Assembly: GCA_000697475.1 (NCBI GenBank)
Contig: JNEU01000207.1
Location: forward strand, 31,924 to 95,923
Direction of reading: 5' to 3'
Origin: Lichtheimia corymbifera B2541
Taxonomy: Eukaryota; Mucoromycota; Mucoromycetes; Mucorales; Lichtheimiaceae
Length of the DNA stretch: 64,000 bases
This document shows, piece after piece, positions 3,885 through 60,530 of the stretch. How positions within the stretch are numbered: position 1 is the stretch's first letter; each line of letters opens with the position of its first letter. A model generated the notes under the pieces. That model saw nothing but the letters and a program-made list of their open reading frames with translations. It ran no database searches and was not told where the DNA came from. Position numbers and translations under genes: made by a program.

Positions 3885-4010
3885 GCTACGCTACCTATGA
3901 AGAATAATGATCTTACAATAAACTTACGCATTTATGCAACCACATTACTATCTCGGTATCCATCTTTACAGGGACTGCAACCTTTTGCTTTATAAGAGGC
4001 TATCTATGCA
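3885..4010 (+). repeat. Left terminal segment of R1, shared with R2
   Basis: The stretch from CTACCTATG through the ACAATAAAC and CAACCACATTA motifs to AATAAACTGC matches 54045-54185 almost collinearly, while the sequence to its left differs. This marks a shared left boundary, only about 70 bp after the VPS34 stop codon. Confidence 0.7.
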
Positions 4011-4977
4011 ATAAACTGCATGTTCCGCCCGTTCATCATTTCTCCTACATTTGGGTTTCCCCGCATCCAAAATCTTCATAATGAAGCGTGCAGTTTTTAA
4101 ATAAATGGAGTTGATCAGCATGACTCAGAGCACCTTCTGACCAAGTTTCAAGTTTGAGAGGGCGAATCCCAAAATCATTTATACTGTTTCGATAAATCAT
4201 GGATTCGACGGGTACCCAATTTCCGACCAGCATAGTCAATCCCACATTATACCCTCCCATTCAAAATTTTGAAATGAAGTGTGGGTTCTTTATTAATACA
4301 AAATTGATCAGCATGCCAAAGAGCATCGTGTTTACAAGTTTGAGGCTCAAGATGATGAATCAATTTACAGTGTGACCCATTTAATTTCCACTTCCTCTCT
4401 CAGCTTCTTGCCTTTTCTTCTTAATAGGGGTAAGGTTTGAAGGGTTCTTATTGGTGGAGAGTGCATGATAGACAATCTCTAAACAGTAAGGTTTGCCTAT
4501 GATGGTGTGGTTAACAAGCATAAATGATCAGTGCATCCAAGACATGAGCGGTAATGGTATTGTTTGCCTCTAGGGTTCATTCTTATACAAGGCTATACAT
4601 ACAAGGTGGATCATGCTGATAGGGCCATTGTCATAGGTAAGCACTATGATGTATGTACTTGTGCCACAGAGCTCATCATCTTAGCCGTAATGATTTAAGC
4701 TTACAATGGATCAAGCTTCCGTGACAAGCAGGGTTGTTGGGTACTATTATTATGGGTTTATTAACATTGAAGATACAAGCGTCTATTTAAACATGTATAC
4801 AATCAGTTATTGGCACTACCCATTGTCTAATGAACATATGAACAATGAAGTTTTAATGAATGTAATATGACAGAAGGAACAAGAGCGTCTCTATACAATG
4901 ATGTGGGTATAATCCAATCTCCCCTTCCGGCCTTCAAACTTCTATCCTTCCTTTCCTTCCAGATGCCAACCAGTGGA

Positions 4978-5430
4978 TCACAAAGAATCAGCAGGTGTCG
5001 TTGTGTCTGTATTCTTGGTTGCTGCCGTCATAGCATCTTCATCCAAATTTGTAAAAGTAGCTGTTGCATGCATTGACTTGAATGTTGCAATATCATCCAT
5101 GGTGGTAAATCCTCTCTTGTCAAAGATATAAGCCCTCGTTTCCATGCCATCCAATTCATCCAATCCATCATCATCCTCAGCCGTATCCACGTGTTCGTTA
5201 CTGCTGACGACGAGCCAAGTAGCCAAAGCAACATTCCAGGATTCCACATTACTGCACTTGATTGCATCCATCCATTCATCCATAACCGTTGCGAGTCCAA
5301 TAAGAAAGAGCCTCTGTGATCGCTGCTGATATGCTTCCTTTTCCATCCGAGTGTTCGTCTCTCTCTTTCTTGGTCATTTTCAGTGCAGCTTATTGCGGGA
5401 TACTTGATAGCTGATATGGGACCATCCATT
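4978..5430 (-). pseudogene. Decayed element ORF, R1 copy
   Basis: The minus strand keeps a 122-residue frame (5346-4978) beginning MEKEAYQQ and holding IKCS, ATWLVVSS and an acidic DGLDELDG stretch. A second overlapping frame (5429-5028) is also open. Related but broken copies lie at 55632-56210 (+), 56582-57307 (-) and 60039-60522 (+). In the last the same start is followed at once by a stop. This looks like remnants of an element-encoded gene; the product is not recognised, and which frame was coding is unclear. Confidence 0.5.
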
Positions 5431-6000
5431 AGAAGTCGTATGCATCATTGCAAGTTGCCACACGTAAATAAAGCTGCTTTTATACAATGGCTATCAGCTG
5501 TCCACGTGAAGAGGCCGCAAGCAACTTGAAACAATGGAGACCTTGCTAATGGCAGCTGCTGTTACGGGATGGTTGTGGCAGAGGAGCGTGTTGTAGTAGT
5601 AGAGTGACAAGATTGTGAACGCTGCTTGAGACAATAAAGTCATTGCTAATAGTAGCTGCTGGAATGAATGCTGTTTCGTTTGATTGTGGCATTGGAGTGT
5701 GCAAGACAGTGTGTGCTTTCAAGAAAGGCGTGTGTTGAAGTGGGGTGGACAGGCCATGAGCTTGTCATTCAGCTCAAGACAATCGGATATTCGTAGCATT
5801 GACATGGTGTATCGGAAGCAAGGCAATCGTTCGCAGGTTGTAGTTGTACTTGAATGGGGGCAACAGTTGAGAATGGGAGGAGGAAGAGGCAAGAACCGAG
5901 AGTGGAAGAAGTGGAAATTAAATAGGTCAGGCACAATCCGACAGATGCATGCACTCTATAAATTACTCCACGACCTTGATGGCCTCTCTCAAACCTGAAA
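5423..6000 (+). repeat. Left subterminal arm of R1
   Basis: This is inverted relative to 10200-10765. Shared landmarks are CACGTAAATAAAGCTGC near 5461, the TTGTGGCAGAGGAG-type segments, and the stretch ending in CAACAGTTGAGAATGGGAGG near 5880. Similarity between the arms is high, with scattered substitutions and small indels. The same arm appears in R2 at 55010-55560, 57375-57870 and 59340-59930. Confidence 0.8.
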
Positions 6001-6830
6001 CTTGCACACAAGGTGCTCTAGGACATGCTGATCAACTTTGTCTTAATGACGAACCCACACTTCATTTGAAAATTTCGAATGGGAGAGCATAATGTGGGGT
6101 TGACTATGACGGATGGAAATTGGGAAAGCGCCGGATTTATGAAAAAGTCAATTAGTATGTAGTTTCTTGGGATTCCCCATTTCGCACTTGAAACTTGGTC
6201 AGAAGGTACTCTAGGACATGCTGATCAACTTTGTCTTAATGACGAACCCACACTTCATTTGAAAATTTCGAATGGGAGAGCATAATGTGGGGTTGACTAT
6301 GACGGATGGAAATTGGGAAAGCGCCGGATTTATGAAAAAGTCAATTAGTATGTAGTTTCTTGGGATTCCCCATTTCGCACTTGAAACTTGGTCAGAAGGT
6401 ACTCTCGCACATGCTGATCAACTCCATTCATTTAAAAACCGCATGGTTCATTATGGACACTTTGAATGCCGGCCAGCCCAAATGTAGGAGAGACAAAGAC
6501 AAAAGTAGGGTAGACGCTCCTGTTCCCCGAGATTGCCCACCTCGAACCTGAAACTTTCACACAACATCCTTTCGACCACGGCGAGCAATTTCGTTCTCAT
6601 AAAGTCCCCATGATTCGTTATGAAAAAACCTGCATGCAGGAGAGACGACAAATGGATGGAAACATAAATAGGGTGTACGGCCGTGCGCGCCGATATTGCC
6701 CATGGCGACGTCGAAACTTGGTAAGGAGGTGCTCTCGGTCATGCTGATCAACATCGTTCTCATAATCCTCTAAACATCATTATGGAGATTTGGAGATACA
6801 GGCACCTTCATGTTTTACCTATGCTGTAAG
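6000..6830 (-). repeat. Module array, left side of R1
   Basis: About five diverged copies of a module that on the minus strand reads AATGAA...AGTTGATCAGCATG...AAGTTTCAGGTTCGA. Two nearly identical copies (around 6021 and 6214) are spaced 193 bp apart. The array is the mirror of 8700-10200 but shorter. Confidence 0.8.
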
Positions 6831-6954
6831 CGTGATGCCATAGGAAAGGTGGTGTTTGTTCATTGTGAAGCAAGTTGGCCCTAATAGAGCGGAAGGTGCA
6901 CAGGGGCGTGCTTGTGTAACACAGCCCATTTGCATGATACTTCATAATGAACAA

Positions 6955-7330
6955 ACACCACTTGTCACATAGCATCACGTTTACAGCATATGTAAAAACA
7001 TAAAGGTACCTGTATCTCTAAACTTCACAATGAAACGTGGGGTCTTCAATCGAACAAAGTTGCTCGTCGGGGTGAAGCGCACCTTGGGTGCAAGTTTCAC
7101 GATCAGGCTCGCCGATCCTAGATTTCGCAATGTCACCACCAGCCAAAGTCGAAAAAAAAATTCTCGAGGTCGACCCAGATCTACTTTGGCTGGAGGTGAC
7201 ATTGCAAAATCTAGGAGTGGCGAGTTTGATCGTGAAACTTGCACCCAAGGTGCGCTTCACCCTGCCGAGCAACTTTGTTCGATTGAAGACCCCACGTTTG
7301 ATTGTAAAGTTTAGAGATACAGGCACCTTT
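6955..7330. repeat. Palindromic hairpin P1 in R1
   Basis: Arms from about 6955-7150 and 7180-7330 are inverted copies (GAAACGTGGGGTCTTC on one side, GAAGACCCCACGTTTG on the other) around a short spacer containing an A-run and CTCGAGGTCGAC. Both strands are open over about 95-100 codons and translate to related peptides, as expected of a palindrome. A related hairpin lies at 8130-8545. Confidence 0.85.
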
Positions 7331-7439
7331 ATGTTTTACATATGCTGTAAATGTGATGCTATATGTAAAGTGGTGTCTGTTCATTGTCAAGTAGCTCAAC
7401 CCGGATAGAGCGGAAGATGGGCAGTGGCGTGCTTGTGTA

Positions 7440-7755
7440 CCACAGCTCATTTGTATGATACTCCACAATGAAGAAAAATCACTTGTCATATAGCATCATG
7501 CTTTTCAGCATATGTAAAAACGAGAAAGTGCATTTAACTCAAAACTTTACAATGAAACATCGGATCTTTGATAGAACAATATTGCTCGTCGTGGTAGAGC
7601 GCACCTTGTCAACCTTGTTTCACGATCACGGTTGCCAATCCTCGATACATTCGCTTTTACGTTTTTACATATGCTGAAAGCGTGATGCTTATGATAAGTG
7701 GTGTTTGTTCATTGTGAAGTATCATGCAAATGAGCTGTGGTACACAAGCACGCCA
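7440..7755. repeat. Inverted hinge unit in R1
   Basis: The sequence around 7440-7480 (CACAGCTCATTTG, TGATACTCCACAATGAA) recurs inverted around 7700-7745, flanking one degenerate module at 7552. This is one of at least three alternating inverted units in the centre of R1. Confidence 0.65.
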
Positions 7756-8129
7756 CTGCCCATCTTCCGCTCTATCAGGGTTGAGCTACTTGACAATGAA
7801 CAAACACCACTTGTCATATAGCATCATGCTTTTCAGTATATGCAAAAGCGTATAAGTACATTTATCTCAAAACTTTACAATGAAACATGGGATCTTTCAT
7901 AGAACAGTATTGCTCGTCGTGGTAGAGCGCACCTTGTCAATCATGATTCACCATCAAGCTTGCCAATCCTCGATGCAGGCACTTTTACGTTTTTACATAT
8001 GCTGAAAGCATGATGCTATATGACAAGCAGTGTTGATCATTGCGAAGTACCATTCAAATGAGCTGTGTTGCACAAGCACGCCGCTGCGTATCTTCCGCTC
8101 TATCAGGGTCAAGCTACTTCACAATGAAC

Positions 8130-8545
8130 AAAGGCCACCTTTCATATAGCGTCATGGTTACAGCATATGTAAAACACAAAGTTGCCCATAACTAAAAATT
8201 TTACAATGAAACGTGGGGTCTTCAATCGAACAAAGTTGCTCGTCTGGGTGAAGCGCACCTTGGGTGCAACTTTCACGATCGTCGCGGCCGATCTCAGATT
8301 CACCCAATGTTGCCACCAGCCAAAGTCGAAAAAAAAATTCAAGAGGTCAACCCAAGATCCACTTTGGCCGATGGTGACATTGCGAAATTTGGGATCGGCG
8401 AGCTGGATCGTGAAACTTGCACCCAAGGTGCGCTTCACCCCGACGAGCAACTTTGTTCGATTGAAGACCCCACGTTTGATTGTAAAGTTTAGAGATACAG
8501 GCACCTTTATGTTTTACATATGCTGTAAATGTGATGCTATATGAC
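8130..8545. repeat. Palindromic hairpin P3 in R1
   Basis: Second copy of the P1-type hairpin, with arms about 8160-8320 and 8350-8545 and again an A-run near the centre (about 8329-8340). Its arms have diverged from P1 by point changes. Confidence 0.8.
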
Positions 8546-8699
8546 AAGGGGTCTTTGTTCATTGTGGAGTATCATGCAAATGAGCTGTGTTACACAAGCA
8601 CGCCCCTGCGCATCTTCCGCTCTATCAGTCTCAATCTACTTTACAATAAACAAATACCACTTGTCATATGGCATCACGCTTACAGCATAGTAAAAACAT

Positions 8700-10200
8700 A
8701 AAGGTGCCTGTATCTAGAAACCTCCATATTGATGTGTAGAGGCTTTATGAGAACGATGTTGATCAGCATGACCGAGAGCACCTCCTAACCAAGTTTCGAC
8801 GTCGCCATGGGCAATATCGGCGCGCACGGCCGTGCACCCTATTTATGTTTCCATCCATTTGCCGTCTCTCCTACATTCAAGGTTTTCATAATGAACTCTG
8901 GGGACTTTATGAGAACGAAATTGTTCAGCGTAGTCGAAAGGACGTTGTGTGAAAGTTTCAGGTTCGAGGTGGGCAATCTCGGGGAACAGGAGCGCCGACC
9001 CTACTTTCTCCTACATTTGGGCTGGCCGGCATTCAAAATGTTCATAATGAACCATGCGGTTTTTAAATGAATGGAGTTGATCAGCATGTGCGAGAGTACC
9101 TTCTGACCAAGTTTCAAGTGCGAAATGGGGAATCCCAAGAAACTACATACTAATTGACTTTTTCATAAATCCGGCGCTTTCCCAATTTCCATCCGTCATA
9201 GTCAACCCCACATTATGCTCTCCCATTCGAAATTTTCAAATGAAGTGTGGGTTCGTTATTAAGACAAAGTTGATCAGCATGTCCTAAAGCACCTTGTGTG
9301 CAAGTTTCAGGTTCGAGGTGGGCAATCTCGGGGAACAGGAGCGCCGACCCTACTTTCTCCTACATTTGGGCTGGCCGGCATTCAAAATGTTCATAATGAA
9401 CCATGCGGTTTTTAAATGAATGGAGTTGATCAGCATGTGCGAGAGTACCTTCTGACCAAGTTTCAAGTGCGAAATGGGGAATCCCAAGAAACTACATACT
9501 AATTGACTTTTTCATAAATCCGGCGCGTTCCCAATTTCCATCCGTCATAGTCAACCCCACATTATGCTCTCCCATTCGAAATTTTCAAATGAAGTGTGGG
9601 TTCGTTATTAAGACAAAGTTGATCAGCATGTCCTAAAGCACCTTGTGTGAAAGTTTCAGGTTCGAGGTGGGCAATCTCGGGGAACAGGAGCGCCGACCCT
9701 ACTTTCTCCTACATTTGGGCTGGCCGGCATTCAAAATGTTCATAATGAACCATGCGGTTTTTAAATGAATGGAGTTGATCAGCATGTGCGAGAGTACCTT
9801 CTGACCAAGTTTCAAGTGCGAAATGGGGAATCCCAAGAAACTACATACTAATTGACTTTTTCATAAATCCGGCGCTTTCCCAATTTCCATCCGTCATAGT
9901 CAACCCCACATTATACTCTCCCATTCGAAATGTTCATAATGAACCATGCGGTTTTTAAATGAATGGAGTTGATCAGCATGTGCGAGAGTACCTTCTGACC
10001 AAGTTTCAAGTGCGAAATGGGGAATCCCAAGAAACTACATACTAATTGACTTTTTCATAAATCCGGCGCTTTCCCAATTTCCATCCGTCATAGTCAACCC
10101 CACATTATGCTCTCCCATTCGAAATTTTCAAATGAAGTGTGGGTTCGTTATTAAGACAAAGTTGATCAGCATGTCCTAAAGCACCTTGTGTGCAAGTTTC
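8700..10200 (+). repeat. Module array with 349-bp higher-order repeat, right side of R1
   Basis: Two diverged monomer types alternate. The marker CCATGCGGTT lies at 9052, 9401, 9750 and 9944, so the dimer period is 349 bp twice, then 194 bp where one monomer is missing. Copies are nearly identical, pointing to recent unequal exchange. Each monomer carries the TTGATCAGCATG core. Confidence 0.85.
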
Positions 10201-10765
10201 AGGTTTAAGAGAGGCAATCAAGGTCGTGGAGTAATTTATAGTGTGCATGGATTTGCATGACAGTGCCTGACCTATTTTAATTTCCAGCTTCTTCCTCTTC
10301 CTCCTCCCATTCTCAACTGTTGCCCCCATTCAAGTACAACTTCAACCTGCAAACGATTGTCTTGCTTCCGATCCACCATGTCAATGCTACGAATACCTTG
10401 ATCCGATTGTCTTGAGCTTAATGGCAAGCTCGTGGCGTGTGCACCCCACTTCAACACACGCCTTTCTTGAAAGCACACACTGTCTTGCACACTCCAATGC
10501 CACAATCAAACGAAACAGCATTCATTCCAGCAGTTACTATTAGCAATGACTTTATTTTCTCAAGCAGCGTTTACAATCTTGTCACTCTACTACTACAACA
10601 CGCTCCTCTTACACAACCATCCCGTAACAGCAGCTGCCAATAGCAAGGTCTCCATTGTCTCAAGCTACTTGCGGCCTCTTCACGTGGACAGCTGATAGCC
10701 CTTGTATAAAGGCAGATTTATTTACGTGTAGCAGTTTGCTTTCAATACATACGACTCTTATGGAT
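10200..10765 (-). repeat. Right subterminal arm of R1
   Basis: Inverted partner of 5423-6000, ending near CACGTGGACAGCTGATAG and TTTACGTGTAGCAG. The decayed ORF found outside the left arm is not present on this side. Confidence 0.8.
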
Positions 10766-10790
10766 ATGGATATGGATATGGATATGAGTA
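10757..10790. repeat. GGATAT hexamer microsatellite
   Basis: About four to five tandem ATGGAT/GGATAT units directly outside the right arm of R1. Confidence 0.8.
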
Positions 10791-10795
10791 CATGG

Positions 10796-11420
10796 AATGG
10801 ATGGATATGGGCATATACGACACGTGAAAAAGGAGCTTTGTTCTTACGTATACATTGTCAACTTGCATCCAACCATCATACTTTAAACTCTTCAATGGCA
10901 GCCACAGTCATCATCCTTTGTGCAACCTGTCAACCATGTTTTGCGACACTACATATGCAGATAATTCGCTCGATCCATTCACTTTTGCACAATGCGCCCT
11001 AAAGGATAGAAACTCCCAACATCGATGTATCTCTCCCATTGCAGCAATTCAATATCTCTTGTGAATGATGTGGAGTAAAGGACTATTTCAGCGAATATGG
11101 ATTGTGTTGGCAACCAATTCTAAGACTTATGGTGTAAGAGACCTTCCTTCTTCTTGAGTTGGACCTTGTCGTGTATGGGCACGTGATGGATGCATTGTAT
11201 TATATACCCACTTGTCAATGCTGAAATAAAGGGAAAAAGAAATGGAGGGAAAGGGCTTAACTGGTTCATTGTACATTGAACAAAGGCTGTATTCGATAGC
11301 ATATCTTATCTCCTCCTTTTCTTTGTGATCAACTCTTATCAATAACATCTTACATACCACACGTCCCTTTTCATGTTTTAGATATTTAAGATAATGACAT
11401 TTGAAGAATCAATGCAGTTT
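10796..11420. other. Intergenic, nothing identified
   Basis: Unique-looking sequence between R1 and the 3' end of the first F-box gene. Short open frames here have no coding character that I can support. Confidence 0.5.
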
Positions 11421-13030
11421 TTAATGCAATCTATTTACAACAACCTTGACACCTTTACTTTTTGCATAGCTAATAAACTCATCTACACCAGCTGGCATTC
11501 TTTGTGCTTGGGCGATCGAGAAAGTGGCATTGCGCAACTTTGGTAATCCATTGACGAGGGTCTTGATACCATGGATGGTGACAATAGGGCAGTCGACAAT
11601 ATCCACTTGTTCCATCAATGATGCATGGGGTATGAGTGCTTCCAATGCCTTATCATCCAATTCACGAATCGACAATAAGCGTAACTTTTCTAATGGCATA
11701 TCATGGAACATCTGGAATAGCTGGGAGAAGTGGTCATTGTTGGCACCATCAAGCGCTGTGAGTTCCAGTTTTCGCAAGGTGGTCATCGTACTCAATCGAC
11801 GTATGAGTGCACGCCAATGTTGATCACGATCATCGCCATATTGCCATATCTGCAAGTGAATTGAAAGATGTTGTAGTGCCTCCAGGTTCATGAGTGGGTG
11901 CCATATCTTGTCAGTGATGGAGTGATCCACAGGATAGAGAGCCACCGTTTCGAGATTGGGTGATTGTCGAATCAAGGATGCAATGGTATGTGGTGTGCAT
12001 TCATGTACCTGAGCACATACAAGTGTCTTAAGACTCGTTGACTGGAAGGAATCAAGGTCGCTCCATGGTGGAACTTTTACAGGTACCCACGTACTGAGAT
12101 AAAGATACTCGAGTGTGTGTTGATGGTCCAATACAAACTTCATAGCATTGGTGTCGTGACATGTTCCCCAATGACCAAAGTATCGTAAGCCTTGCTTGTC
12201 AGAGGATGATGGCGGTGGCCACTTTACCATCTTGGGTACACCAAATTCGCCAATAAACATGGATTGCAGTTGAGGACAGGTGTTCATAATGTCGTGACAG
12301 CTGATAGGATCGGCAACATCGATATGAATATGTTGTAATGTTGATGAGCATCGTTGCAAGATATCCATCCAGTCAGCTCGAATATTCTGGGTTGTCAATG
12401 CCAAGGACACCAAACCAAACTGATATGTATTGGGCAGAGGAGGTGCTGGTGGAGGATATGGACACATGTTCTCATTTTCAGCGAGCGCAAGTATGGGATA
12501 CATCGCGTCGTAATGGCACGCAAAATGTCGCAAACAACCATCACCATTCGCAGCCATAATGATCCCGAAAAAGTCCAAGCATGCACCAGAGACACCATTC
12601 AATTTGAGTGATTCGCACCTCATATTTTCCAGCAGATCAGCAAGGCGCTTATTATCCTCAATCTTGAACCAGTCTATGACTATCATCATCATCATTAATA
12701 ACAAAATCCAATAAAGAAGCCATTAGCATATAACTTACCTAGAGATTGTAAATGACATCCCTGTAGTCGCTTGAGTGTAGGATATAACAATGCATCATTG
12801 TCACCCTTGATGATATTGCATGAATCGATATACTGTCCAAAACACGAGGTCTGTGTAAGGAAAAGGAGATGGTCATCGGTCTTGATATCCACATGCTTCC
12901 ATAGGTGGCTCGAGTAGGGTGGGAGATGCTGACGCCAAGAGCGATTCACTTGTACACATTCAATAAAGTCGCGTCGATTGAAGTGGTTGGCAATCTTGCG
13001 GACAATCTCGGATGGGAATCTCTCAAGCAT
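11421..13030 (-). CDS. F-box protein with LRR-like C-terminus (F-box 1)
   Basis: Probable substrate receptor of an SCF ubiquitin ligase. Exons are 12739-13030 and 11421-12673, giving 514 aa. The F-box is at residues 1-45 (MLERFPSEIVRKIANHFNRR, then CVQVNRSW). The rest is leucine-rich with recurring LExL and LRKLEL patterns, consistent with degenerate leucine-rich repeats. The start is the ATG at 13030; an upstream in-frame TTG is ignored. The acceptor could also be six bases upstream without changing frame. Intron phase 1 after 97 codons matches the other two F-box genes in the window (30473 and 43859). Substrate unknown. Confidence 0.8.
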
Positions 13031-13546
13031 GGACAAGGAAACAAAGAGGTATAAAAAGGTAGCCGGTAGTGAGAACCGTCTTTTATAAGGATATGAGCCA
13101 AGTGAAAAGGTAACTCGAAAAGATGTGTACCGCAGTAAGATTGATGACCATTCTGTCCTTAATTAGGCTATCGGGATTCATGCACAGACGCTGCCCCCCT
13201 CTTTGCGAACACAGCCATTCACATATCCCATGCGTTGCTAAGCAAGAATGTTGTCACGAACCACCATATTGTTATCACCACACATCTCTAACTCGTTTAT
13301 TGCTTACATCCTCCTAAAGACCCCTTAGTAAGCTTGATGGCATGTGATCTGCTGCGGGACATGTAATAAACTTTTAGCGATTCATTGTTATTGTACTACT
13401 TTCATTGTCGTCATTGTCAGTGTTCTGTATCCCCACACCATCACCCCCTCGGGTCACTTTTGTTCTTATTCGCCGTAAGAAGAGCTTCCTTCATTGCCAT
13501 ATGTGTGATGGGTATATAAGTAGTACTAAGCGAGACCACGTATCAT
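13031..13546. other. Intergenic, F-box 1 upstream region
   Basis: About 0.5 kb between the F-box 1 start and the 3' end of the next minus-strand gene. A TATATAAG string lies near 13513, too far from the start to assign with confidence. Confidence 0.4.
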
Positions 13547-14433: not shown

Positions 14434-15156
14434 GGAGTTTTAAAAGGGAGCAGACAACAAAGCGAGAGATTGCGTAAAAGACGATAACTATATATGAATA
14501 CAGAGGTTCATTGTATGCATTATGGCACATTGTGTGTACCTTTTCGGCAATACACCTCTCGATCTGCTTGACAACACGGTGCTGTAAGCGGCTTAATGTT
14601 GTCGTATACTGCCCGTAGTAGATTTGTAATAATCCACAGTCACTTTCAAGTGCTGACCAAGCAAATGTTGTAGTGTGTATTAGTTTGCATCTGTGAGAGA
14701 GAGACATGTAGTTGGGATGGTGATGAGTGTGGTTGTGGTGGTGTGGTGGGATTGCATATATGGAAAGCCAATGCAACTACTTTATCCAATCAAATATTTC
14801 TGATTACGTTTTGCTTATCCAATGGCGTTTTGCTTTCCCCCTTTTAATTTTTGGACGAGTAAAGAAGACTATCTTGTAGAATAAGGTAAGAGGCACTCTA
14901 TATTGATTTCTTTGGGGGTTAGGATAGACCGTAACCAAGTATAAAGCCATGCATTGTCAATGACAGGTGACACAAATGCAAATGTCGCTGACATGAATGT
15001 AAAATGCATGTGAAAAACAGCGTGCCTGACTTTGAAATATCACTGCTTTGGCGATGACTAAGAGACTACGAGGCAAAGCATTGAAAAGGGATTCCAGGAA
15101 CATGCATTTTCCCGCTTTCTTTGTTTCCCCACACATTATCTTTTTCCTCCACCACC
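14434..15156. other. Divergent intergenic region
   Basis: Lies between the minus gene starting at 14433 and NMO1 on plus. A C/T-rich leader (15111-15156) precedes the NMO1 start. On the minus strand 14722-14550 is open (SALESDCGLLQIYYG) and could be a small exon, but I could not join it to a neighbour. Confidence 0.4.
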
Positions 15157-16208
15157 ATGGTTCTCAAGACAAAATTGACTGAAATGCTCGGTATTGAGCA
15201 CCCCGTTGTTCAAGGTAAAAGAGAAAGGACGTGCTTCCACATGACGGACATGGGCTCATTGGCAATGTGACAGGTGGCATGCAATATGTCGGCACTGCTG
15301 AAATGGCATCTGCTGTATCGAATGCGGGTGGTCTTGGTATGATTACGGCATTGACGCAGCCCACTCCCGACAAGTTACGTGACGAGATTCGCCGTTGTCG
15401 CTCCATGACCAGCAAACCCTTTGGTGTCAACCTTACATTTTTGCCTGCAATCACCCCACCTCCTTATGCTGAATACGCCCAAGCTATCATTGACGAAGGT
15501 ATCAAGGTCGTTGAGACTGCTGGCAACAACCCTGGCAAGTACATCAAGATGTTCAAGGAAGCTGGTATCATTGTGATCCACAAGTGCACTGCTATCCGTC
15601 ACGCCTTGTCTGCCCAAAAGTTAGGTGTGGATGTGATCTCCATGGATGGTTTCGAGTGTGCTGGTCACCCTGGTGAAGATGATATTGGTGGTTTGATCCT
15701 TTTGGCCAAGAGTGCTACTGCATTGAAGATCCCTTACATTGCTTCTGGTGGTATGGGCAATGGTCGTAGCTTGGCTGCTGCTTTGGCTTTGGGTGCTGAG
15801 GGTGTCAACATGGGTACTCGTTTCATGTGCACACAAGAATCGCCTATCCATCACAACGTCAAGGAAGCTATGGTGAAGGCTGATGAACGATCCACTTCTC
15901 TTGTCTTCCGTCCTTTCCGCAACACTTCGCGTATTTTCAAAAACTCGGTCGCTGTCGAAGTCAATGCTCGTGAACGTAACCCCAACATCAAGTTTGAAGA
16001 TGTCCGTGAATTGGTCGCTGGTGCTCGTGGTCGTCAAGTTTACACCACTGGTGATCCTGAATTTGGTGTCTGGACTGCTGGTCAAGTGCTTGGTCTTATC
16101 AATGATATTCCTACTTGCAAGGATCTTGTCGCTCGTATCGTGGCTGATGCTGAAGAGATTATCAAGAATCGTCTTATTCGTATGGTTGATACCAAGAGCA
16201 AGTTGTAA
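15157..16208 (+). CDS. Nitronate monooxygenase (2-nitropropane dioxygenase family), copy 1
   Basis: FMN-dependent TIM-barrel enzyme that oxidises nitronates such as propionate-3-nitronate. Exons 15157-15214 and 15274-16208 give 330 aa. The start MVLKTKLTEMLGIEHPVVQG is typical, and the phase-1 intron splits the glycine codon at VVQG/GM. Family marks are GFECAGHPGEDD with the likely catalytic His151, IHKCT (about 122), ASGGMGNGR and the phosphate-binding GAEGVNMGTRF. The start is set by a good context (ACCACCATGG) after a pyrimidine-rich leader. A paralogue with the same first intron lies at 25513-26611. The actual substrate cannot be read from sequence. Confidence 0.9.
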
Positions 16209-25512: not shown

Positions 25513-26611
25513 CTATGTAATCAACTTTGCAAGGTCTTGCTTTATGATCTGCTCGGCATCTGTGGCGATTCTGGTGACCAGCTCCTCACATGTTGGGATA
25601 TCGTTGATCAATCCAATGACCTGACCTGCACTCCAGACACCATAATCCTTGTCTCCTGTGATATAAGACTGGCGTCCACGTTTACCCGAGACCAAATCCC
25701 TGATATCTTCAAACTTGACATCCTTATTCTTTTCGATTTGATTGACTTTTACAGCCACCTCATTCTTGAAGACACGAGCTGTGTTGCGGAAAGGACGGTA
25801 CAATAATGCTGTTGAACGCTCATCCGCTTGCACGATGGCTTCCTTGATATCGTCGTGGATAGGTGCTTCCTTTGTGCACATGAACCGAGTTCCCATATTG
25901 ATACCTTGAGCACCCAAAGCCAATGCAGATACCAATCCTCGAGCATTACCAAAACCACCCGATGCAATGTAAGGTGTCGTCAATGATTCAGCAGCTCTTG
26001 CCAACAGGATCATACTCGATATATCATCTTCACCAGGATGGCCCGCACATTCAAATCCGTCGATGGATAAAACGTCAACACCCATTTTCTGTGATGATAT
26101 AGCGTGACGGATGGTAACGCACTTGTGGATGGTTTTCAATCCTGCCTCCTTGAACATGGCGATATATTCCTTGGCTAAGGTGGATGAATGGATCATCATG
26201 AGTCATCCCATCACTCTCATTATCCTCTTTAAACACTTACGATTGTTTCCTGCAGTCTCAACGACAGGGACCTTTTCTTCACATATCACTTGGGCATATT
26301 CCTTGTAAGGGGGTGGCTTGATAGCAGGCAACAGAGTAAGGTTGACACCAAAAGGGTTATGCGTCATATCTCGCATGCGTCGAATCTCTTTTCTCAAGTC
26401 TTCAGGGGTCGGTTGTGTGAGTGCAGTAATGATACCAAGTGCACCTGCGTTGGATACAGCTGACGCCAACTCGGCACGACCCACATGAGTCATACCACCT
26501 GTAAATAGCAATGTCAGTAACCCGATCTTGTCGATATCGCTCGATGGCATTACCTTGGACAATGGGATGCTTGATGCCGAGAATGCGTGTCAATTGAGTA
26601 GTAATGGGCAT
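25513..26611 (-). CDS. Nitronate monooxygenase, copy 2
   Basis: Paralogue of the gene at 15157. Exons 26554-26611, 26241-26498 and 25513-26174 give 325 aa. The first exon has exactly the same length (58 nt) and phase as copy 1 (MPITTQLTRILGIKHPIVQG); a second intron lies after ETAGNN and is absent from copy 1. Landmarks are GFECAGHPGEDD with the catalytic-type His, IHKCVTIRHA, ASGGFGNARG and GAQGINMGTRF. The two copies face each other 9 kb apart, so they were duplicated dispersedly or the region was rearranged. Substrate preference unknown. Confidence 0.9.
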
Positions 26612-41667: not shown

Positions 41668-41706
<39 letters not shown>

Positions 41707-50677: not shown

Positions 50678-52106
<1,429 letters not shown>

Positions 52107-52636
52107 GCGGTGTACTCTTTACACATCCTTCTCTCTCACATAATGCACCCGCACGTTCACATCCCCTCTTTTCTCTCTCTCCCATTTTCTTTTGTACAAA
52201 ATCAATGCATACCAAAGAACCCCTTCTAACGTAACCATTTAATCCTTGGAATCTTTTTCCCCTTTTTCTCATTCTCTTCTTACATCTTTTGCTTATCTTT
52301 TTCCACTTGTAAGATATAGAACGTTTCAACATGTTCGGGGTTCTTGTCTATTGCCAAAAACACATACACACATACACACATAACAATAAAAAAAACCCGC
52401 ATTCAACATGTAATATCACATGGCCGTTCTTTTGTTACTCATTGGCTTTTTTAAAACGCCACAAGGGCAGTAAGAAGGAGATGGCTGCAGGGGATACTGA
52501 CCTCATTCATACTCTTTAACGCTTCAAAACGTGCATGTTAAGCTTCCCGCGAATACAAAAAGAGAGCCAACATGCATGTGTTAGATGATCTGTGCCTTTT
52601 GCTCTTAATCCACCTTGCCATCTTTTTATTATTTCA
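52107..52636. other. Intergenic, nothing identified
   Basis: 0.5 kb, pyrimidine-rich 3' flank of the adenosylhomocysteinase gene, then AT-rich sequence. Confidence 0.5.
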
Positions 52637-53279
52637 ATGAAGGTTTGAATGGGGTGTTAACTAGCTACGATAGACAATTTGTTCTCTGATATTACTTTTA
52701 GCTATCCGTTTTCGCAGCCATGTTGCTCCTTAGTAACATAATCCAAAACGTGCAAGCCGACACCGACTATTTTAACAAGCCAGTCGCTGCATCATCTTAT
52801 TCACCATGCCAACGTGTCGACTTTTTGCTTGATAGGATTGATAATGACGAGGACCAAATCATTCTTGCTCAGCTCTACAAACATGAGGATATCCACAAAG
52901 ATGAGCAGGACCAGGAAGAAGAGAATGATGATGATGATGACGATGATAGTGCTGAGTAAGTTCACTTGGTCCCTCCTCCCTCACATGTGACCCACCCCCT
53001 CTCTTGATACTGATCGACATCCTCCATGAAAATAGTGCGACCTTTGTCAAGACAATCCGCATGTGGCGTGGCGATGATATTGGTGATGAAAACAGCGATT
53101 TCTCATTTTCCTGGATTGTGCCTGCTTCCCTTGCCAATGGCAAATACCACGTTCAAATCGAAACCAAACGCATTGGCAGTGATAGCATCGAACAAGGGGA
53201 TATCACCCGTAGCCGCACATTCACCATCCTTCCCAATCCCGATAATTCCAAAACCAAGAATCGTTGCATGCGACAATGA
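52637..53279 (+). CDS. Small secreted protein, Kre9/Knh1-like domain
   Basis: Exons 52637-52642 (six bases, ATG AAG), 52702-52955 and 53036-53279 give 167 aa. With the microexon the protein begins MKLSVFAAMLLLSNIIQNVQA, a good signal peptide; without it the ATG at 52720 leaves a poor one. A Glu/Asp-rich loop (about 65-87) interrupts a beta-sandwich-like domain that ends FSFSWIVPASLANGKYHVQI and SRTFTIL. This resembles the Ser/Thr-rich GPI-anchored/Kre9-Knh1 N-terminal domain linked to beta-glucan and cell-wall assembly. No GPI tail is seen. The intron donor GTTTGA is weak, so the first exon is an inference. Confidence 0.6.
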
Positions 53280-53400
53280 ATAAACAAAAAGCGTGCGTTG
53301 TTGTAAGAGATGTTGTTGTCTTTTTTTCTACCAAACTGACTAGTCGACGTAACGTTTCTAATGCTGGATATTTTCGGGCTATAATCAAACCAATGATGAG

Positions 53401-53819
53401 TTATACGATATCCTATTGTTTCCATAGCAACCGCATCCCATTTCATCCAATATCAAGCTTACCATGATAGGAGGCAAGTTGCGTTCCCACTTTGTACCAT
53501 CGGGACCCAAGTAGGCTATATATAACACACACATATATAAATATGAGTACTTTTCAATACACAACAGAAGACAAAAAGACAACGTACGCTTGTAAGGATC
53601 AGGGTGAGCCCAGCTTTGGAGTTCCTTTTCAGCATTCTTCAACAAGAGTTGGATTTCCTTGGGGTTGGAGACATGCTTGTTACGCTCGAATTGGGCACGA
53701 ATGTCCAAGGCCTTTTGGCGCCACAAATCGCGTTGAATGTACCAGTCGAGGGAGGTCTTAAGAGCACGCTTGTACAAGGATTGGACGTGAAGACGATGCG
53801 CGTTCTGGAGTGACGACAT
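53401..53819 (-). CDS. NADH:ubiquinone oxidoreductase subunit NDUFB9 (B22), LYR protein
   Basis: Accessory subunit of mitochondrial complex I. Exons 53588-53819, 53463-53515 and a 12-nt last exon 53401-53412 (DIV-stop) give 98 aa. The LYR-type start is HRLHVQSLYKRALKTSLDW with IQRDLWRQKALDIRAQFE, then LLLKNAEKELQSWAHPDPYK and PDGTKWERNLPP, which match the family. If the last intron is not removed the frame instead runs to 53385 with an unrelated tail. The gene lies 121 bp tail-to-tail from the Kre9-like gene, and its start is about 225 bp from repeat R2. Confidence 0.85.
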
Positions 53820-54399
53820 GAGGGATATAAAAGGTGTGTGTGTGTGGAAGGGTCAACACTGTTTTTTCCTTTACCGTGAATCGCTCACCCAGATTGGCTC
53901 TCAGTAGTCGACGTCACACCAGCTTGTGCTTAACGTGGAGAAGCGCACCTACTGGCTGGCTTTACCTCTTGGATGCTTGTCACATGATCGTCTTAATACT
54001 CGGTTGCGGTAAACTTCTTTATTCCTCGTTGAAAAGCTTAACACTACCTATGGAGTAATGATATTACAATAAACCTACACGTTTACGCAACCACATTAGT
54101 ACGTCTTTATCTTTACATGAACCTGCAATCGTTTGCTTTATCCATATTCACAAAATAAGATGCTATCTCTGTAATAAGCTGCCGGAGACAAGGCATATTA
54201 GTGTGCATCAACATACCCTACACCCAATCCACTGCATGTAGACGATCCTCCTACTTTAGCCCATAATTTCCATCATCCATGTGTCCTGTTCTGAGATAAT
54301 ACGGCTGAGCAACGCTGCAACAGGACACACAACATAAATACATGCACCATACATTCCCCTACTTATATTGTCACACCACATCACACCATCCCATTCACC

Positions 54400-55000
54400 A
54401 TTCTCCATAATGGAGCATGAGGTCTTTATTAGAACCAAGTTGATCAGCATGTCCAAGAGTATCTTGTCTGAAATTTTCAGGCTCGAAATGGGCATTCTTA
54501 AGGTTATGGAGCGTCCACCCTATTTATATTCCCGTCCGTTCATCGTCGGACGTCCCCATTCACAATTATCATAATGAAGGGTATAGTTTTTATTTGAATG
54601 GAGTTGATCAGCATGTCGAAGCCCACGGCCTGACCAAGTTTCGCGATGGAGGTGGGCAACCGCGGGGGTGTGCACTATGTACCCTACTTGCGTTCCTTCC
54701 GTCCTATATTTGGGCCCTCCGATTCATTGAATCATCGTAATGAAGCATACGGTTTTCAAATGAATGGAGTTGATCAGCATGACGTAGAGAACCTTCTTAC
54801 CAAGTTTCATATTCGAAAGGGGGAATCCCAAGATTATGCATACTAAATGACATTTCAATGAATCCGGGAGGGTCCGGAATTTTGGTCGATCATAGTAAAC
54901 CCCACATTACATCCTCCCATTCAAAATCTTTGAATGAAGCATGGGTTCTTTATTAAGACAAAGTTGATCAGCATGTCCAAGAGTATATTGTGTGCAAGTT
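54400..55000 (+). repeat. Module array, left side of R2
   Basis: Four diverged modules with the TTGATCAGCATG core, near 54439, 54603, 54769 and 54964. They differ more from each other than the modules in the central palindrome, so this array appears older. Confidence 0.75.
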
Positions 55001-55009
55001 TGAGGTTCG

Positions 55010-55560
55010 AGGTATGCAATCTCAAGTTCATGGATTAATTTACAGTGAGCATGAATATGCCTGACAGCTCCACCAACTTAAATTTCCAGCTCTTCCACTC
55101 GCAGCTTCTTTGTCTCTTTCTCTCATTCTCAACTGTTGCCCCATTCAAGTACAACTATAACCTGCGAACGATTGTCCTGCTTCAACCCAACATGTCAATC
55201 CCACAACTGTCTTGATCCGATTGTCTTTGACTGAATGGCAAATCCATGGTGTATACACCGCACTACAACACCCCCTGCTCCTTGACACTACACGTTCTCT
55301 TGTACACTCTTCTGCCACAACCAATCGTAACAGCATTCATTCCAGCAGTTACTATTAGCAAGGCCTTCATTGCATTGTCTCCACAGCGTTCACAGCGTTG
55401 TCACTCTACTACAACAGCACACGCTCTTGCACACTCCTCTGCCACGACCCAACATAGCAGCTGTTGCTATCAGGGATGTCTTTCTCCATTGTTTCAAGTT
55501 ACTTGCAGCAACTTGTAGATTCCAAAGGATTGTGGTGCCATATAAGCTATCAGAACACTG
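55010..55560 (-). repeat. Subterminal arm in R2 (copy 1)
   Basis: Same family and orientation as 10200-10765. Landmarks are CAACTGTTGCCCCATTC, ACGATTGTCCTGCTT and the repeated TGCCACAACCAATCGTAACAG-type string. Confidence 0.75.
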
Positions 55561-55631
55561 CATACAAGCAATCGCTCACCTGGTTGAGCTGCGATAGAAA
55601 CGGACCAAGAAAAAGATAGACCAACAGCCGG

Positions 55632-56210
55632 ATGGAAAAGCAAGCATATCAGCAGGGACACGGAAGCTCTTTCTTATTGGATATGCAGGAATGCGAAATC
55701 GTGGAACGTTGCTTTGGGTTACTTGGCGCGTCGTCCGCAGGAACGATGGATCATATCACATGGATACAGCTGAGGGTAATGAGGGATTGGATGGAATAGA
55801 GTAAAGGGCTTATATCTTTTGACCAAAGACGTTTTCAGTCATGGATGATATTAGAGTACTCGATTCAATGTGTGCAGCAGTTATTTTCCAACCATGGATG
55901 AAGGATGCATATGGCAGTAACGACCAAGATCACAATGGCACAATTATCCCTGCTACCTCTATTTGATCACCCCACGTATCTTATTCGACTTGCTATGCTG
56001 TTCCTTTATCGTATTTATTTGATAAACATCCACACTACCATGTATTATTCCTCGACATTTACATTGAGTGAATATTGGGTTCAACGGATATTAGACGGGT
56101 ATCGTGCTATCAGCTCCTATGTGGGAGATGTGGATCACTTGGTTTGTTTCCGGGTTAAAGGGGGAAGCGAGATTGGATCATATATATCATCGGATCGAGA
56201 TGCTAGATAA
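55632..56210 (+). pseudogene. Decayed element ORF, R2 copy 1
   Basis: Begins MEKQAYQQ, similar to the R1 frame, then stops after about 55 codons. A second open stretch (55905-56210) continues the homology seen inverted at 56582-56870 (FLYRIYLINIH, SSYVGDVDHLV). Broken and of unknown product. Confidence 0.5.
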
Positions 56211-56581
56211 AGATAGTGTTTGTTCATTGTCAACTAGCTAGACCTTGATAGAGCCAAAGATGCAGAAGAGCGTGCTTGTGTTACTGAGCCAGAATTGAAG
56301 GGCCGATCCTATTTGTGGAGAGAATGCATGAAGTAACTGCATCCACAATACGCCTTTAGTAAGGCCCGCCTATGATGGCGCGATGGAATGGTTCGTTCTT
56401 ACTTATGGTTTCATAGGATAGTGTTAGCTGGAACTTGTCGTAGGTAATCATGACATGTTCATGCATTCGTGCCACATTCTCTCACAGCTCACTCTTTCTT
56501 GAACATAATGAATTAAGCTTACAATGAATTAAGCTTATATAACAAGCACACCATATGATGTCGGGCATCCTCACTCTGAAT

Positions 56582-57307
56582 TTATTGTCTTTGCAAAACA
56601 AGTGTTTGGGAATAGCGACTGCCTTCGTGTATCATCATGTGGACTAGGAAGCTTAATAAACGAAAGTATACTGTCACAAAAGAACGAATGCATCTCGGTA
56701 CATACAATGATGTAAATGATTCAGCCTCGCTTTCCACCTTCAGGCTACTATTCCCCCCCTTCAATCCAGAAACCAACCAAGTGATCCACATCCCCCACAT
56801 ATGAGTTGATATCACGATACCCTCTAAATATCGTGTTGAATCCAATTTTCATTCCATGATTAAGTCGATGTTTATCGAGTAAATATGATAAAGGAACAGT
56901 GTTGCAAATAGCATAAGATACGGGTGAATCACATAGAGGAGAAGAGGGGTAATTGTGTCATTGTATTCTTGGTTGCTGCCGTCATAAGCATCCTTCATCT
57001 ATGATTGGAAATAGTTGCTGCATGATTTGATTCGAGTATTCCATATCATCCACGGTTGTAAAAGTCCTTTGTCAAAGATATAAGCTTCTTCGTCAACTCC
57101 ATCTCATCCATCCATCATCATGGTCCTCAGCCGTATCCACGTGGTCGATCCTACGGATAACGCGTCAAGTAACCAAAGCAGCATTCCAGGGTATCTCATC
57201 ACTGCACTTGATTGCATCCATCCATCATCCAATATGTTGGTTGAAAAGAGCCATAATGGTGGTACGCTCCCTTTTCCATCCGGTTGTTGGTCAATCCCTT
57301 CTTCCAT
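56582..57307 (-). pseudogene. Decayed element ORF, R2 copy 2
   Basis: Inverted relative to copy 1. Two open pieces, 57307-57104 (GWMQSSAVM, PGMLLWLL) and 56845-56582, match frames of the R1 and R2 copies but are separated by stops. Confidence 0.45.
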
Positions 57308-57374
57308 CGTAGCTCAACCAGGTGGGCATTGCTTGTAGTGTGCTGAATTTGATGGCTGGTATGGCATCCCATCC

Positions 57375-57870
57375 ATTGGAACCTACTATGTATCAAAGCA
57401 AGCTGCTGCCAAGCAACTTGAGACAATGGAGTAAAGACCTTGATAATAGCAACAGCTGCCATGTTTGGTCGCGGCAGAGTGGGTGTGCAAGAGCGTGTGT
57501 TGTAATAGAGTGACAAGGCTGTGAACGCTGTTTGAGTACAATAGAGTAAGACCTTGCTAATTGCAACTGCTGAATGAATGCTGTTACGATTGGTTGTGGC
57601 AGAAGAGTGTACGAGGGAACGTGCAGGGTCAAGGAAAGCGGGTGTTGCTGTAGTGGGGGTCCACACGCCATGGAACTTGCCATTCAGTCAAAGGCAATCA
57701 GATCAAGCCATTCGTAGTATTGACATTATGGGGTGAAGCAGGACAATCGTTCGCAGGTTGTAGTTGTAGTTAAATGGGGCAACAGTTGAGAATGGGAAGA
57801 AGAGGGAAATAAAGTGTGAGTGGAAGAGGTGGAAATTAAATCTGTCAGGCAGTCAGACATATCCATATAC
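57375..57870 (+). repeat. Subterminal arm in R2 (copy 2)
   Basis: Same orientation as 5423-5930 and inverted relative to 59340-59930. Its outer end lacks the CACGTAAATAAAGC block present in the other copies. Confidence 0.7.
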
Positions 57871-57899
57871 ACCGATATCAATGCATGATACATATTGGT

Positions 57900-59340
57900 A
57901 TTTCCTACCTCGAACCTCAAACTTTCACACATTGTGCTCTAGGTCATGCTCAACAACTTTGTCATAATAAAGAACCCACACTTCATTTGAAAATTTCGAA
58001 AGGGAGAGCATAATGTGGGATTTACTATGATGGGCGGAAATTGGGAAAGCGCCGGATTTATGAAAAAGTCAGTTAGTGTGTAGTTTCTTGGGATTCCCCA
58101 TTTCGCACTTGAAACTTGGTCAGAAGCTACTCTCGCACATGCTGATCAACTCCATTCATTTAAAAACCGCATGGTTCATTATGTACATTTTGAATGCCGG
58201 CCAGCCCAAATGTAGGTGAAAAGTAGGGTAGACGCTCCTGCTCCCCGAGATTGCCCACCTCTAACCTGAAACTTTCACACAACATCCTTTCGACCACGCC
58301 GAGCAATTTCATTCCCATAAAGACCTCAGAGTTCATTATCAAAACCTTGAGTGTAGAAGAGACGACAAATGGATGGAAACATAAATAGGGTGTACGGCCG
58401 TGCGCGCCGATTTTGCCCATGGCGACGTCGAAACTTGGTCAGGAGGTGCATTCGGTAATACTGATCAACATCGTTCTCATAAAGCCTCTACACATCATTA
58501 TGGAGATTTGGAGAAACAGACGCCTTTATGTTTTTACATATGCTATAAGCGTTGCTATATGACAAGTGGTGTTTGTTCATTGTGAGGTATCATGCAAATG
58601 AGCTGTGTTGCGCAAAGAAGTCCGTCTGCACCGTCGGCTCTATTAGAGTCAAGCTCCTTCACAATGAACAAACACCACTTGTCATATAGCATTATGGTTA
58701 CAGCATATGTAAAACATAAAGGCGTCTGTTTCTCCAAATCTCCATAATGATGTGTAGAGGCTTTATGAGAACGATGTTGATCAGTATGACCGAATGCACC
58801 TCCTGACCAAGCTTCGACGTCGCCATGGGCAAAATCGGCGCGCACGGCCGTACACCCTATTTATGTTTCCATCCATTTGTCGTCTCTTCTACACTCAAGG
58901 TTTTGATAATGAACTCTGAGGTCTTTATGGGAATGAAATTGCTCGGCGTGGTCGAAAGGATGTTGTGTGAAAGTTTCAGGTTAGAGGTGGGCAATCTCGG
59001 GGAGCAGGAGCGTCTACCCTACTTTTCACCTACATTTGGGCTGGCCGGCATTCAAAATGTACATAATGAACCATGCGGTTTTTAAATGAATGGAGTTGAT
59101 CAGCATGTGCGAGAGTAGCTTCTGACCAAGTTTCAAGTGCGAAATGGGGAATCCCAAGAAACTACACACTAACTGACTTTTTCATAAATCCGGCGCTTTC
59201 CCAATTTCCGCCCATCATAGTAAATCCCACATTATGCTCTCCCTTTCAAAATATTCAAATGAAGTGTGGGTTCTTTATTAATACAAAGTTGTTCAGCATG
59301 CCCAAGAGCATCTTGTGTGAAAGTTTGAGGTCAAGGTGAG
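57900..59340. repeat. Central near-perfect palindrome of R2
   Basis: Arms about 57950-58590 and 58655-59290 surround a 60-70 bp hinge centred at 58622.5. The 261-bp frames 58420-58160 (minus) and 58825-59085 (plus) are identical base for base by eye and exactly equidistant from the centre. Small differences exist closer to the hinge (for example near 58433 and 58812). Each arm contains four modules. Confidence 0.92.
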
Positions 59341-59930
59341 CAATCCCCATATCAAGGATCAATTTACAGTGTGCATGAATATACCCTGACAGCGCAACCA
59401 ACTTTAATTTCAAGCTCTTCCACTACCAGCCTCTTCCCTCTTTCTCCCATTCTCAACTGTTGCCCCATTCAACTACAACTACCACCTGCGAACGGTCGTC
59501 TTGCTCCAACCCATCATGTCAATTCTGCAACTGTCCTGATACTATTGTCTTTGACTGAATGACAAGTCCATGGCGTGTACACCTCACTCCAACACCCGCG
59601 TTTCTTGACGCGACACACGCTCTTGCACACTCCTCTGCCACAATCAAACGTAACAGCATTCATTGCAGCAGTTGCTATTAGCAAGGTCTTACTCTATTGT
59701 TCTCGAACAGCGTTTACAACCCTGTCACTCTACTGCAACACACGCGCTTGCACACTTTTCTACACCACCAAACGTAATACTATCAGCAAGGTCTTACTCC
59801 ATTGTCTCAAACAGCGTTCTTTACTTGCTGGAACTTGTATTACAGCCTTTTCACATGAACAGCAGATAGCCATTGTATAGAGCAGCTTTATTTACGTGTA
59901 GCAACTTGATTCAACATATACATAGTCCAA
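59340..59930 (-). repeat. Subterminal arm in R2 (copy 3)
   Basis: Inverted partner of 57375-57870, ending with TTTACGTGTAGCAAC like the R1 right arm. A 60-70 bp internal duplication (AGCAAGGTCTTACT at about 59679 and 59778) is present. Confidence 0.7.
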
Positions 59931-60038
59931 TGGATGATGCCACTTCAACTTTCAAATACATACAAGCAATCTTCACATGTTTAAACTGCAAAGGGAAACG
60001 ATCAAGAGAAAGAGTGTGTGTGTGACCAAGGGCCGGAT

Positions 60039-60522
60039 GGAAAAGGAAGCATATCAGCAGTGATCACAGGGGAGAGGGTTCTTTATATCAAATCCTGGAA
60101 ATGCAATGGTTAGGCTGGATGGAGGCAATCAAGTGCAGTGACGGGGATGTTATTGTGATTACCTGGCACGTCGTCAGCAAGAAGGAAGGATTCTATCATG
60201 TGGATCATGGTGATGGATTGGATGGCATTCGTGAGACGTGTTTTAATGCCATGGGAATGGAAGATATTGGATCACTGGAGTGAAGGCACGCAGCAGCGGC
60301 TTTGGGATCATGGATGATACTGATTATGGCGACAGCAACCAAGGATACAATGAAACAATGACAGCTGTTGGTTTATCTGATTCACTCATCATATTCAATT
60401 TGGTGATGCCGTTCCATTATTGTATCTACCTGAGAAAGACCCATACTATCATTCTTCAACTTCCAGTCGATGAACATTGGATTCAAATAAGAATTGTGCA
60501 TTATTATGGGGGTGATTTCTGA
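60039..60522 (+). pseudogene. Decayed element ORF, R2 copy 3
   Basis: The start MEKEAYQQ is identical to the R1 copy but is followed immediately by a stop. A later open piece (60101-60283) keeps WMEAIKCS and ITWHVVS, and 60280-60522 resembles the distal part of copy 1 (PFHYCIYL, DEHWIQ). Confidence 0.5.
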
Positions 60523-60530
60523 GTGAACGG

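Follow-up and report, generated by a model that had tools for sequence, protein, structure and literature searches.

Helitrons have TC and CTRR ends and make no target duplications, the combination of TC with CTAG being the signature of Helitron1 (PMC5148889), and they insert at A-T (PMC4067079). Foldback elements such as Tm1 (PMC3169594), Galileo and Tetris carry composite inverted arms of tandem arrays and are variable in length. For the fungus Lichtheimia corymbifera, a repeat content of 4.7% was obtained with Censor against Repbase (PMC4133162), and Helitrons have been discussed for Mucor (PMC7928374). Here we examine a 64,000-nucleotide stretch of L. corymbifera B2541 (contig JNEU01000207.1; C11:31924-95923 in an assembly of 432 contigs and 35 Mb), hereafter the window, in which two blocks, R1 and R2, had been predicted from the sequence to be giant inverted-repeat elements of a non-autonomous foldback type. 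We conclude that R1 and R2 are probably old members of a Helitron-like, non-autonomous family in L. corymbifera, both lying 5′ to 3′ on the minus strand; the family resembles a Helitron in its ends and a foldback element in its interior.

The family shares with non-autonomous Helitron1 elements a 5′-TC, a 3′-CTAG, an A^T insertion site, the lack of terminal inverted repeats and of target duplications, and non-coding copies of varied length. It differs from them in its nested foldback core of several kilobases, in having no significant 3′ hairpin, and in that no partner encoding a Rep-helicase (RepHel) with shared ends was found. Like DINE-1/HINE and the satellite-carrying Helentron derivatives (PMC4067079, PMC7492417), it would be a non-autonomous element of rolling-circle type with internal tandem repeats; those elements, however, are described there as having subterminal inverted repeats and TT targets, whereas here the target is A^T, no such repeats are present, and the arrays are inverted and nested. 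Fusarium FoHeli, a Helitron2 (PMC5148889), is likewise a fungal rolling-circle type with asymmetric ends, but it has asymmetric terminal inverted repeats and coding copies, and its end sequences differ. With Tm1 (PMC3169594), Galileo and Tetris the family has in common the composite inverted arms of tandem arrays and the variable length; unlike theirs, its arms are non-terminal, it lacks target duplications, and its ends are different. The suggestion that the family is undescribed has held so far: no description of such an element was found among titles and the opening parts of abstracts, with subscription journals, Repbase and Dfam lying outside the search.

Paired termini and insertion sites

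Relatives of R1 and R2 are present on many contigs, as blocks of about 2.5-8.5 kb amid other sequence (20 stretches on 13 other contigs), several of which run into a contig end or into the end of the stretch taken for comparison. Genome searches gave at least 44 matches for a 1-kb piece of R1 (best 40 of 1121 candidates scored), at least 215 for a core query (best 40 of 836) and at least 61 for the R2 hinge (best 40 of 984). The left boundary of R1 recurs at many places, as does a second, right boundary that the original prediction had not given. In merged lists one terminus is found at 74 loci and the other at 105, the two being different in sequence and not inverted with respect to each other. 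Eighteen terminus pairs, R1 among them, lie no more than 12 kb apart (1.1-7.7 kb between mid-points), and strand and order are consistent in all 18, where chance agreement would be about 1 in 4 per pair. The C279 pair is kept in this count but is doubtful, as the 3′ end in question is that of a deletion copy of about 290 bp. That copy (L036 1368-1647) is of note in itself: both terminal regions are directly joined, as in an internal deletion down to the size of a miniature inverted-repeat transposable element.

On the minus strand the 5′ terminus begins TCTCCCRCCGTATAT after a flanking A, and the 3′ terminus ends GCGAGCAACCnnGGCCGCTAG before a flanking T; the last 30 bp of the family at the 3′ side are GAGCGAAGCGAGCAACCnnGGCCGCTAG. 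ATCTCCC or ATCTCTC is present in 11 of 18 homology-found 5′ ends, and A precedes TCTC in 12 of the 13 that were compared, 4 of which had been preselected by pattern; the 5′ end of C160, which is cut short, was left out of the 5′-end count. Thirty 3′ ends were read (a set of 16 and an earlier set of 14), and exact CTAG is found in 12, followed by T in 10 of the 12. In a further four ends of the set of 16, the same position reads CTAT, CTAA or CTAC. Taken at the level of the family, these ends agree with a 5′-TC, a 3′-CTRR and insertion at A^T. The 24-nt 3′ motif AAGCGAGCAACCNNGGCCGCTAGT has 24 matches at no more than 3 mismatches and its reversed control 0, and an inner 20-mer beside this motif has 50 matches versus 4 in the control. 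The 3′ 20-mer has no match anywhere in the window, as would be expected if both blocks are old copies; GTAG stands at the 3′ edge of R1.

No terminal inverted repeat was detected, the local score of 8.0 between the termini being below the shuffle mean of 10.96, and asymmetric or subterminal inverted repeats of the Helitron2/Helentron kind were absent between the ends (47 and 63 nt compared). A search for full copies with target-site duplications had been proposed with the original prediction; in none of three copies with both ends read does a direct repeat abut the element, one of the three being C414, whose 3′ end is decayed. Canonical Helitrons have a hairpin 10-12 nt before the 3′ end. Close to the 3′ terminus here there is a candidate GGTT...AACC stem with GCGAAGC inside, its AACC lying 11 nt from the terminus in 9 of the 10 ends measured and 13 nt from it in the tenth; by eye, the stem is compensated in C101 and C131. 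The DNA oligonucleotide d(GCGAAGC) folds into a hairpin of unusual stability.

Architecture of R1 and R2

The two related inverted-repeat blocks are real: self-BLAST of the window gives kilobase-long nested inverted alignments in both, far above chance, and confirms a shared left boundary (R1 3888-3993 and R2 54041-54141, 78.5% identity), arms, hinges and core modules. In R1 there are a palindromic core at 6171-9327 (83% identity) and inverted arms at 5424-6626 and 10765-9582 (90%), and tandem arrays with periods of 193-349 bp occupy 5996-6423, 7459-8262, 8937-9943 and 9728-10136. In R2, an inverted pair at 54512-56164 and 58396-56755 (73%) is accompanied by a palindrome at 57418-59810 (87%). 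The array-hinge-inverted-array core of the original prediction is upheld by self-BLAST and by module mapping; the edges of the blocks require revision. R1, placed earlier at 3885-10795, has its left edge at 3857 and its right edge at about 11415, 620 bp beyond 10795; R2, placed at 54045-60530, starts at 53992 and ends at about 60440.

As a whole, R1 would be a Helitron-like element of about 7.56 kb (3857-11417, minus strand), reading 5′ to 3′ from about 11415 to 3857, with both ends decayed. End profiles match at 3859-4021 and 10744-11403, R1 being among the sequences from which the profiles were built, and the edges were set by eye from alignments. From its 3′ end inwards it comprises the 3′ terminal region U (3857-4038, minus; alignments and end profile), an old P module of about 100-bp units with TTGATCAGCATG (4039-4361; self-BLAST and module mapping), a 48-bp V remnant found by module mapping (4373-4420), and the hinge Q (4422-4960), delimited by an identity step at 4422 versus 13 other loci. 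These are followed by the S module (4972-5400, minus), which holds a 131-amino-acid frame with protein-database matches, and by the inner copy of the V arm, which is of a young type by module mapping and identity comparison (5424-5930). The tandem-repeat scan, self-BLAST and module mapping together define a P array in plus orientation with a 193-bp period (5988-6626) and its inverted counterpart with 349-bp and 194-bp periods (8722-10209). Between the two lies the M/N core (6777-8740; self-BLAST and module mapping), the centre of the large palindrome, which consists of palindromic M units, each about 230-250 bp long, together with N spacers, in both orientations. The inverted copy of the V arm (10289-10765; 93% to the inner V of R1) and the 5′ terminal region R (10744-11417, minus; alignments and end profile) complete the element.

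R2 (53992-60440, minus) is a 5′-truncated relative of R1, its limits given by the U profile at 53999-54188 and, on the right, by BLAST. The profile of R has no match in R2; the 3′ terminal module and the series arm-hinge-arm-core-arm are present. Its U (53992-54188, minus) was placed by alignments and end profile. Module mapping then identifies P modules (54373-55026), an inverted outer V-S arm (55036-55968, also by self-BLAST), a hinge formed of half an M and an old Q (56165-56754, also by genome search), an inner S-V-P arm (56924-58515), a single palindromic M core (58507-58740, also by self-BLAST) and a right P-V-S arm (58730-60386).

Seventeen regions of the genome were mapped with modules defined from R1 and R2, and the sub-parts recur on many contigs in a shared order. 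Starting at the 3′ end and moving inwards, this order reads U-P-V(-)-S(-)-Q-S(+)-V(+)-P(+)-P(-)-[M/N core]-P-V(-)-R. The view that R1 and R2 have different module orders is not borne out, since one order is common to both: R1 has lost its outer V-S arm apart from the 48-bp remnant, and R2 lacks R, its 5′ end being lost, and has an extra S. The order was also found elsewhere, and the idea of a new element does not fail on that count. In C160 the series from U to R is present, with its R cut short and its 5′-side P in one orientation; C378 has the series from R to the outer V, with a 3′ end 7.7 kb away; and C248 runs from U to V(+) and then reaches the contig end. C363, C384 and C141 keep to the order between the outer P or V and the core, with neither U nor R seen in the module mapping, and C384 and C141 have further V and M pieces past the core. 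The remaining regions (C89, C264, C217a, C217b, C139, C167, C202, C308 and C324) are partial or rearranged.

A young interior between old ends

Pairwise comparisons among R1, C160, C378 and C248 separate the modules into two levels of divergence. Between loci, Q is 93.5-97.8%, S 95.2-97.9% and the inner V 95.2-96.3% (3 pairs) identical; the values are 56-67% for U (3 pairs, 144-178 nt), 60-66% for R (3 pairs) and 73-80.5% for the 5′-side V (3 pairs). R2 has old modules, its S and inner V being 73-80% identical to those of the other loci. At the Q edge, position 4422 of R1, identity per 100-bp window jumps from 32-52% to 84-94% in 13 other loci (C264 has no value just outside), and the exact edge shifts by up to about 20 bp among three or more contexts. 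On the other side of the young block there is no sharp edge, and identity fades within the M/N core. The two V arms of R1 are 93% alike and those of C160, C378 and R2 76-80%, as if the young V arm of R1 had overwritten its inverted partner.

A young interior with old ends implies that transposition of whole elements is insufficient alone; the pattern would be accounted for by gene conversion, by a nested mobile unit or by break-induced copying via the inverted arms. We infer that the Q-S-V interior spreads, or is homogenised, apart from the ends.

Coding content and candidate partners

The longest stop-to-stop frame is 138 amino acids in R1 (106 of 200 shuffles had one as long) and 162 in R2 (24 of 200), neither being above chance. 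Pfam scans detected no family at cut-off in 9 open frames, of the 16 and 8 listed (best E 0.11, below cut-off), and none in the one protein of R2 that was among a separate set of 4. The earlier statement that no transposase-type motif lies inside R1 or R2 therefore agrees with the frames tested.

The decayed reading frame said to be shared by the two blocks corresponds to one that has been annotated repeatedly as an L. corymbifera predicted protein. The S frame (4978-5373, minus, 131 amino acids) matched 48 protein clusters with 85 member sequences, of which 46 clusters are named L. corymbifera predicted proteins and the other 2 are nameless ENA entries; no cluster carries the name of another Lichtheimia, in a database that includes proteins of three other species of the genus. 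A PDB search with the frame gave no match. Among 23 matching sources, 9 copies (no gap, at least 110 residues, more than 78% identity) gave an omega of 0.46, and a simulation gave P values of 0.026 for synonymous excess and 0.15 for stops; both are weak and we do not rely on them. These proteins have the look of gene models derived from the repeat, or of a small gene that it carries, and their annotation likely inflates the gene-family counts of L. corymbifera.

A search for a partner encoding a transposase had been proposed with the original prediction. Domains of Mutator-like elements (MULEs) are present at 9 places on 8 contigs, and the Rep domain PF14214 at 4, on C84, C391, C73 and C396, 3 of them with stop codons. 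Only one MULE contig, C213, has a listed end, and one of its two MULE domains is close to it. This variant 3′ end reads GAGCGAAGCGAGCAGTTGGCGGCCTAG followed by T; in the 61 bases read, the element ends GAGCAGTTGGCGGCCTAG, again before T. The proximity may be due to chance, to a neighbouring element or to a MULE partner. An identical 20-mer, TACGAGCGAAGCGAGCAGTT, is found at C135, C213, C300 and C357, and the one that was read (C213) ends CCTAG before T, 2.4 kb from the MULE domain; these four may represent a younger subfamily of this 3′ end.

Assessment and alternative explanations

The Helitron-like assignment is supported by the constant non-inverted termini with the Helitron signature, the range of copy sizes (about 0.3-7.8 kb), the shared order in large copies, the finding of no encoded enzyme and the occurrence of a Rep domain (PF14214) elsewhere in the genome. 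Several observations weigh against it. The ends of R1 are too decayed to show TC or CTAG (GTAG at 3857) and R2 has no 5′ end, so that their membership in the family rests on their relatives. The 5′ motif is absent from 7 of the 18 ends (R1, C279, C225, C130, C387, C237 and C27), 18 of the 30 3′ ends do not have exact CTAG, and the 5′ 16-mer has 56 matches versus 28 in its control, only a twofold excess. Fifty-six loci of one end and 87 of the other have no partner, which is what one would expect from decay, from limited scoring and from chance matches to the pattern (the 28 in the 5′ 16-mer control). No empty site was found, none having been examined for the A^T comparison. Several of the 10 copies have a broken GGTT/AACC stem, and folding of the 3′ hairpin is not significant (z of -0.44 for a consensus-like end, -1.36 to 1.15 over 6 sequences). 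None of the PF14214 places, whose flanks were not read, is near a mapped end, the nearest being about 27 kb away (C396), while the MULE domain of C213 (36900-37217, minus) lies 2439 bp upstream of the variant 3′ end on the same strand.

If R1 and R2 are Helitron-like, the biology of Helitrons suggests how the family would move. A Rep-helicase supplied from elsewhere would nick the 5′-TC and 3′-CTAG ends and peel off a single strand, which would join an A^T site without a target duplication. The foldback-like core would be cargo, its arms inverted around the hinge Q and again around the M/N core, and it probably grew through template switching and inverted duplication. The Q-S-V-P half, far younger than the terminal modules, would spread in addition by gene conversion, break-induced copying or nested insertion. 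A more specific, tentative model, which we rate as rather unlikely, is a two-layer element in which old Helitron-like shells enclose a nested inverted core that now spreads by itself; the half from the Q edge to the core would be copied between dispersed shells, and would fold back and rewrite the opposite arm, faster than the shells move, and the family would now be renewed by hairpin-driven conversion and not by transposition.

Among the other explanations, the likeliest is a nested system, with the young Q-S-V-P-core block as a mobile unit of its own, inserted into, or replacing parts of, older Helitron-like shells. The contrast in identity (93.5-97.9% for Q, S and inner V versus 56-67% for U and 60-66% for R) and the 4422 edge, sharp in 13 loci and constant to about 20 bp in three or more contexts, are what such a unit would leave. 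However, the block lacks a sharp edge on its far side, and neither termini nor a target duplication were identified for it. R2, whose sequence is old, is built in the same way, so that the architecture is older than the young block; we regard the nested system as possible, but as having the odds against it.

Membership in another class whose ends are asymmetric and which makes no target duplication (Helitron2/Helentron, Crypton or an unknown one) would suit the missing partner and the lack of a clear 3′ hairpin, yet TC with CTAG is the Helitron1 signature in PMC5148889, and the compared ends share no asymmetric terminal inverted repeat; this assignment seems to us improbable. We find it quite improbable, too, that the family is a Mutator-like element without terminal inverted repeats, its asymmetric ends moved by a MULE transposase. 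The C213 arrangement would be expected of such an element, but it is one of 9 places only, the other MULE contigs having no listed end, and the variant end itself shows CTAG before T; the main family, moreover, has no duplication in three of three copies, whereas Tm1, of Mutator type, is described as having 8-10 bp (PMC3169594). A segmental or satellite-like array that is not mobile, and that ectopic recombination alone has dispersed, could explain the variable array copy number, the inverted duplications, the matches at several contig ends and the blocks in C384, C141, C363 and C89 without recognisable ends; the constant ends, which at different sites are paired at distances of 1.1-7.7 kb, and the retention of both ends in the deletion copy of about 290 bp make this a poor candidate. 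Least probable of all is a foldback DNA transposon of FB/Galileo/Tm1 type with long composite inverted repeats and a cut-and-paste transposase, for which the array-hinge-inverted-array architecture and the 9 MULE places speak (Tm1 being a foldback family of Mutator type in PMC3169594), but whose inverted arms would have to be terminal and not, as here, internal to non-inverted termini without duplication. The foldback class was accordingly set aside: arms of tandem arrays were found, terminal inverted repeats and target duplications (0 of 3) were not. What stands of the original classification is a non-autonomous element of mobile type, with ordered copies and no enzyme found.

If the Helitron-like assignment is correct, an abundant repeat of L. 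corymbifera is placed as a Helitron-like family, one that the Censor/Repbase estimate could miss, and a foldback-type architecture can arise within rolling-circle ends. The contrast between young interior and old ends makes it possible to test directly how inverted arrays spread through a genome, and the presence of the S frame as 46 L. corymbifera predicted-protein clusters affects gene counts.

Other features of the window

Rfam and tRNA scans of the window gave no match. The 5′ end of R1 (window 11407-11423) lies about 5-15 bp from the stop codon, at 11421-11423, that closes an F-box/LRR gene on the minus strand (11421-12704), and as this decayed end adjoins the stop, the 3′ end of the gene would come from the element. 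Over 98% of its length, the F-box frame matches a protein of L. corymbifera JMRC:FSU:9682 with 100% identity. At 15231-16208 and 25513-26502 there are two related, divergent genes in opposite orientation, about 71% identical in DNA and putatively nitronate-monooxygenase-like. A 36-bp tandem repeat of 3.8 copies (62240-62376) lies within a serine/alanine-rich reading frame.

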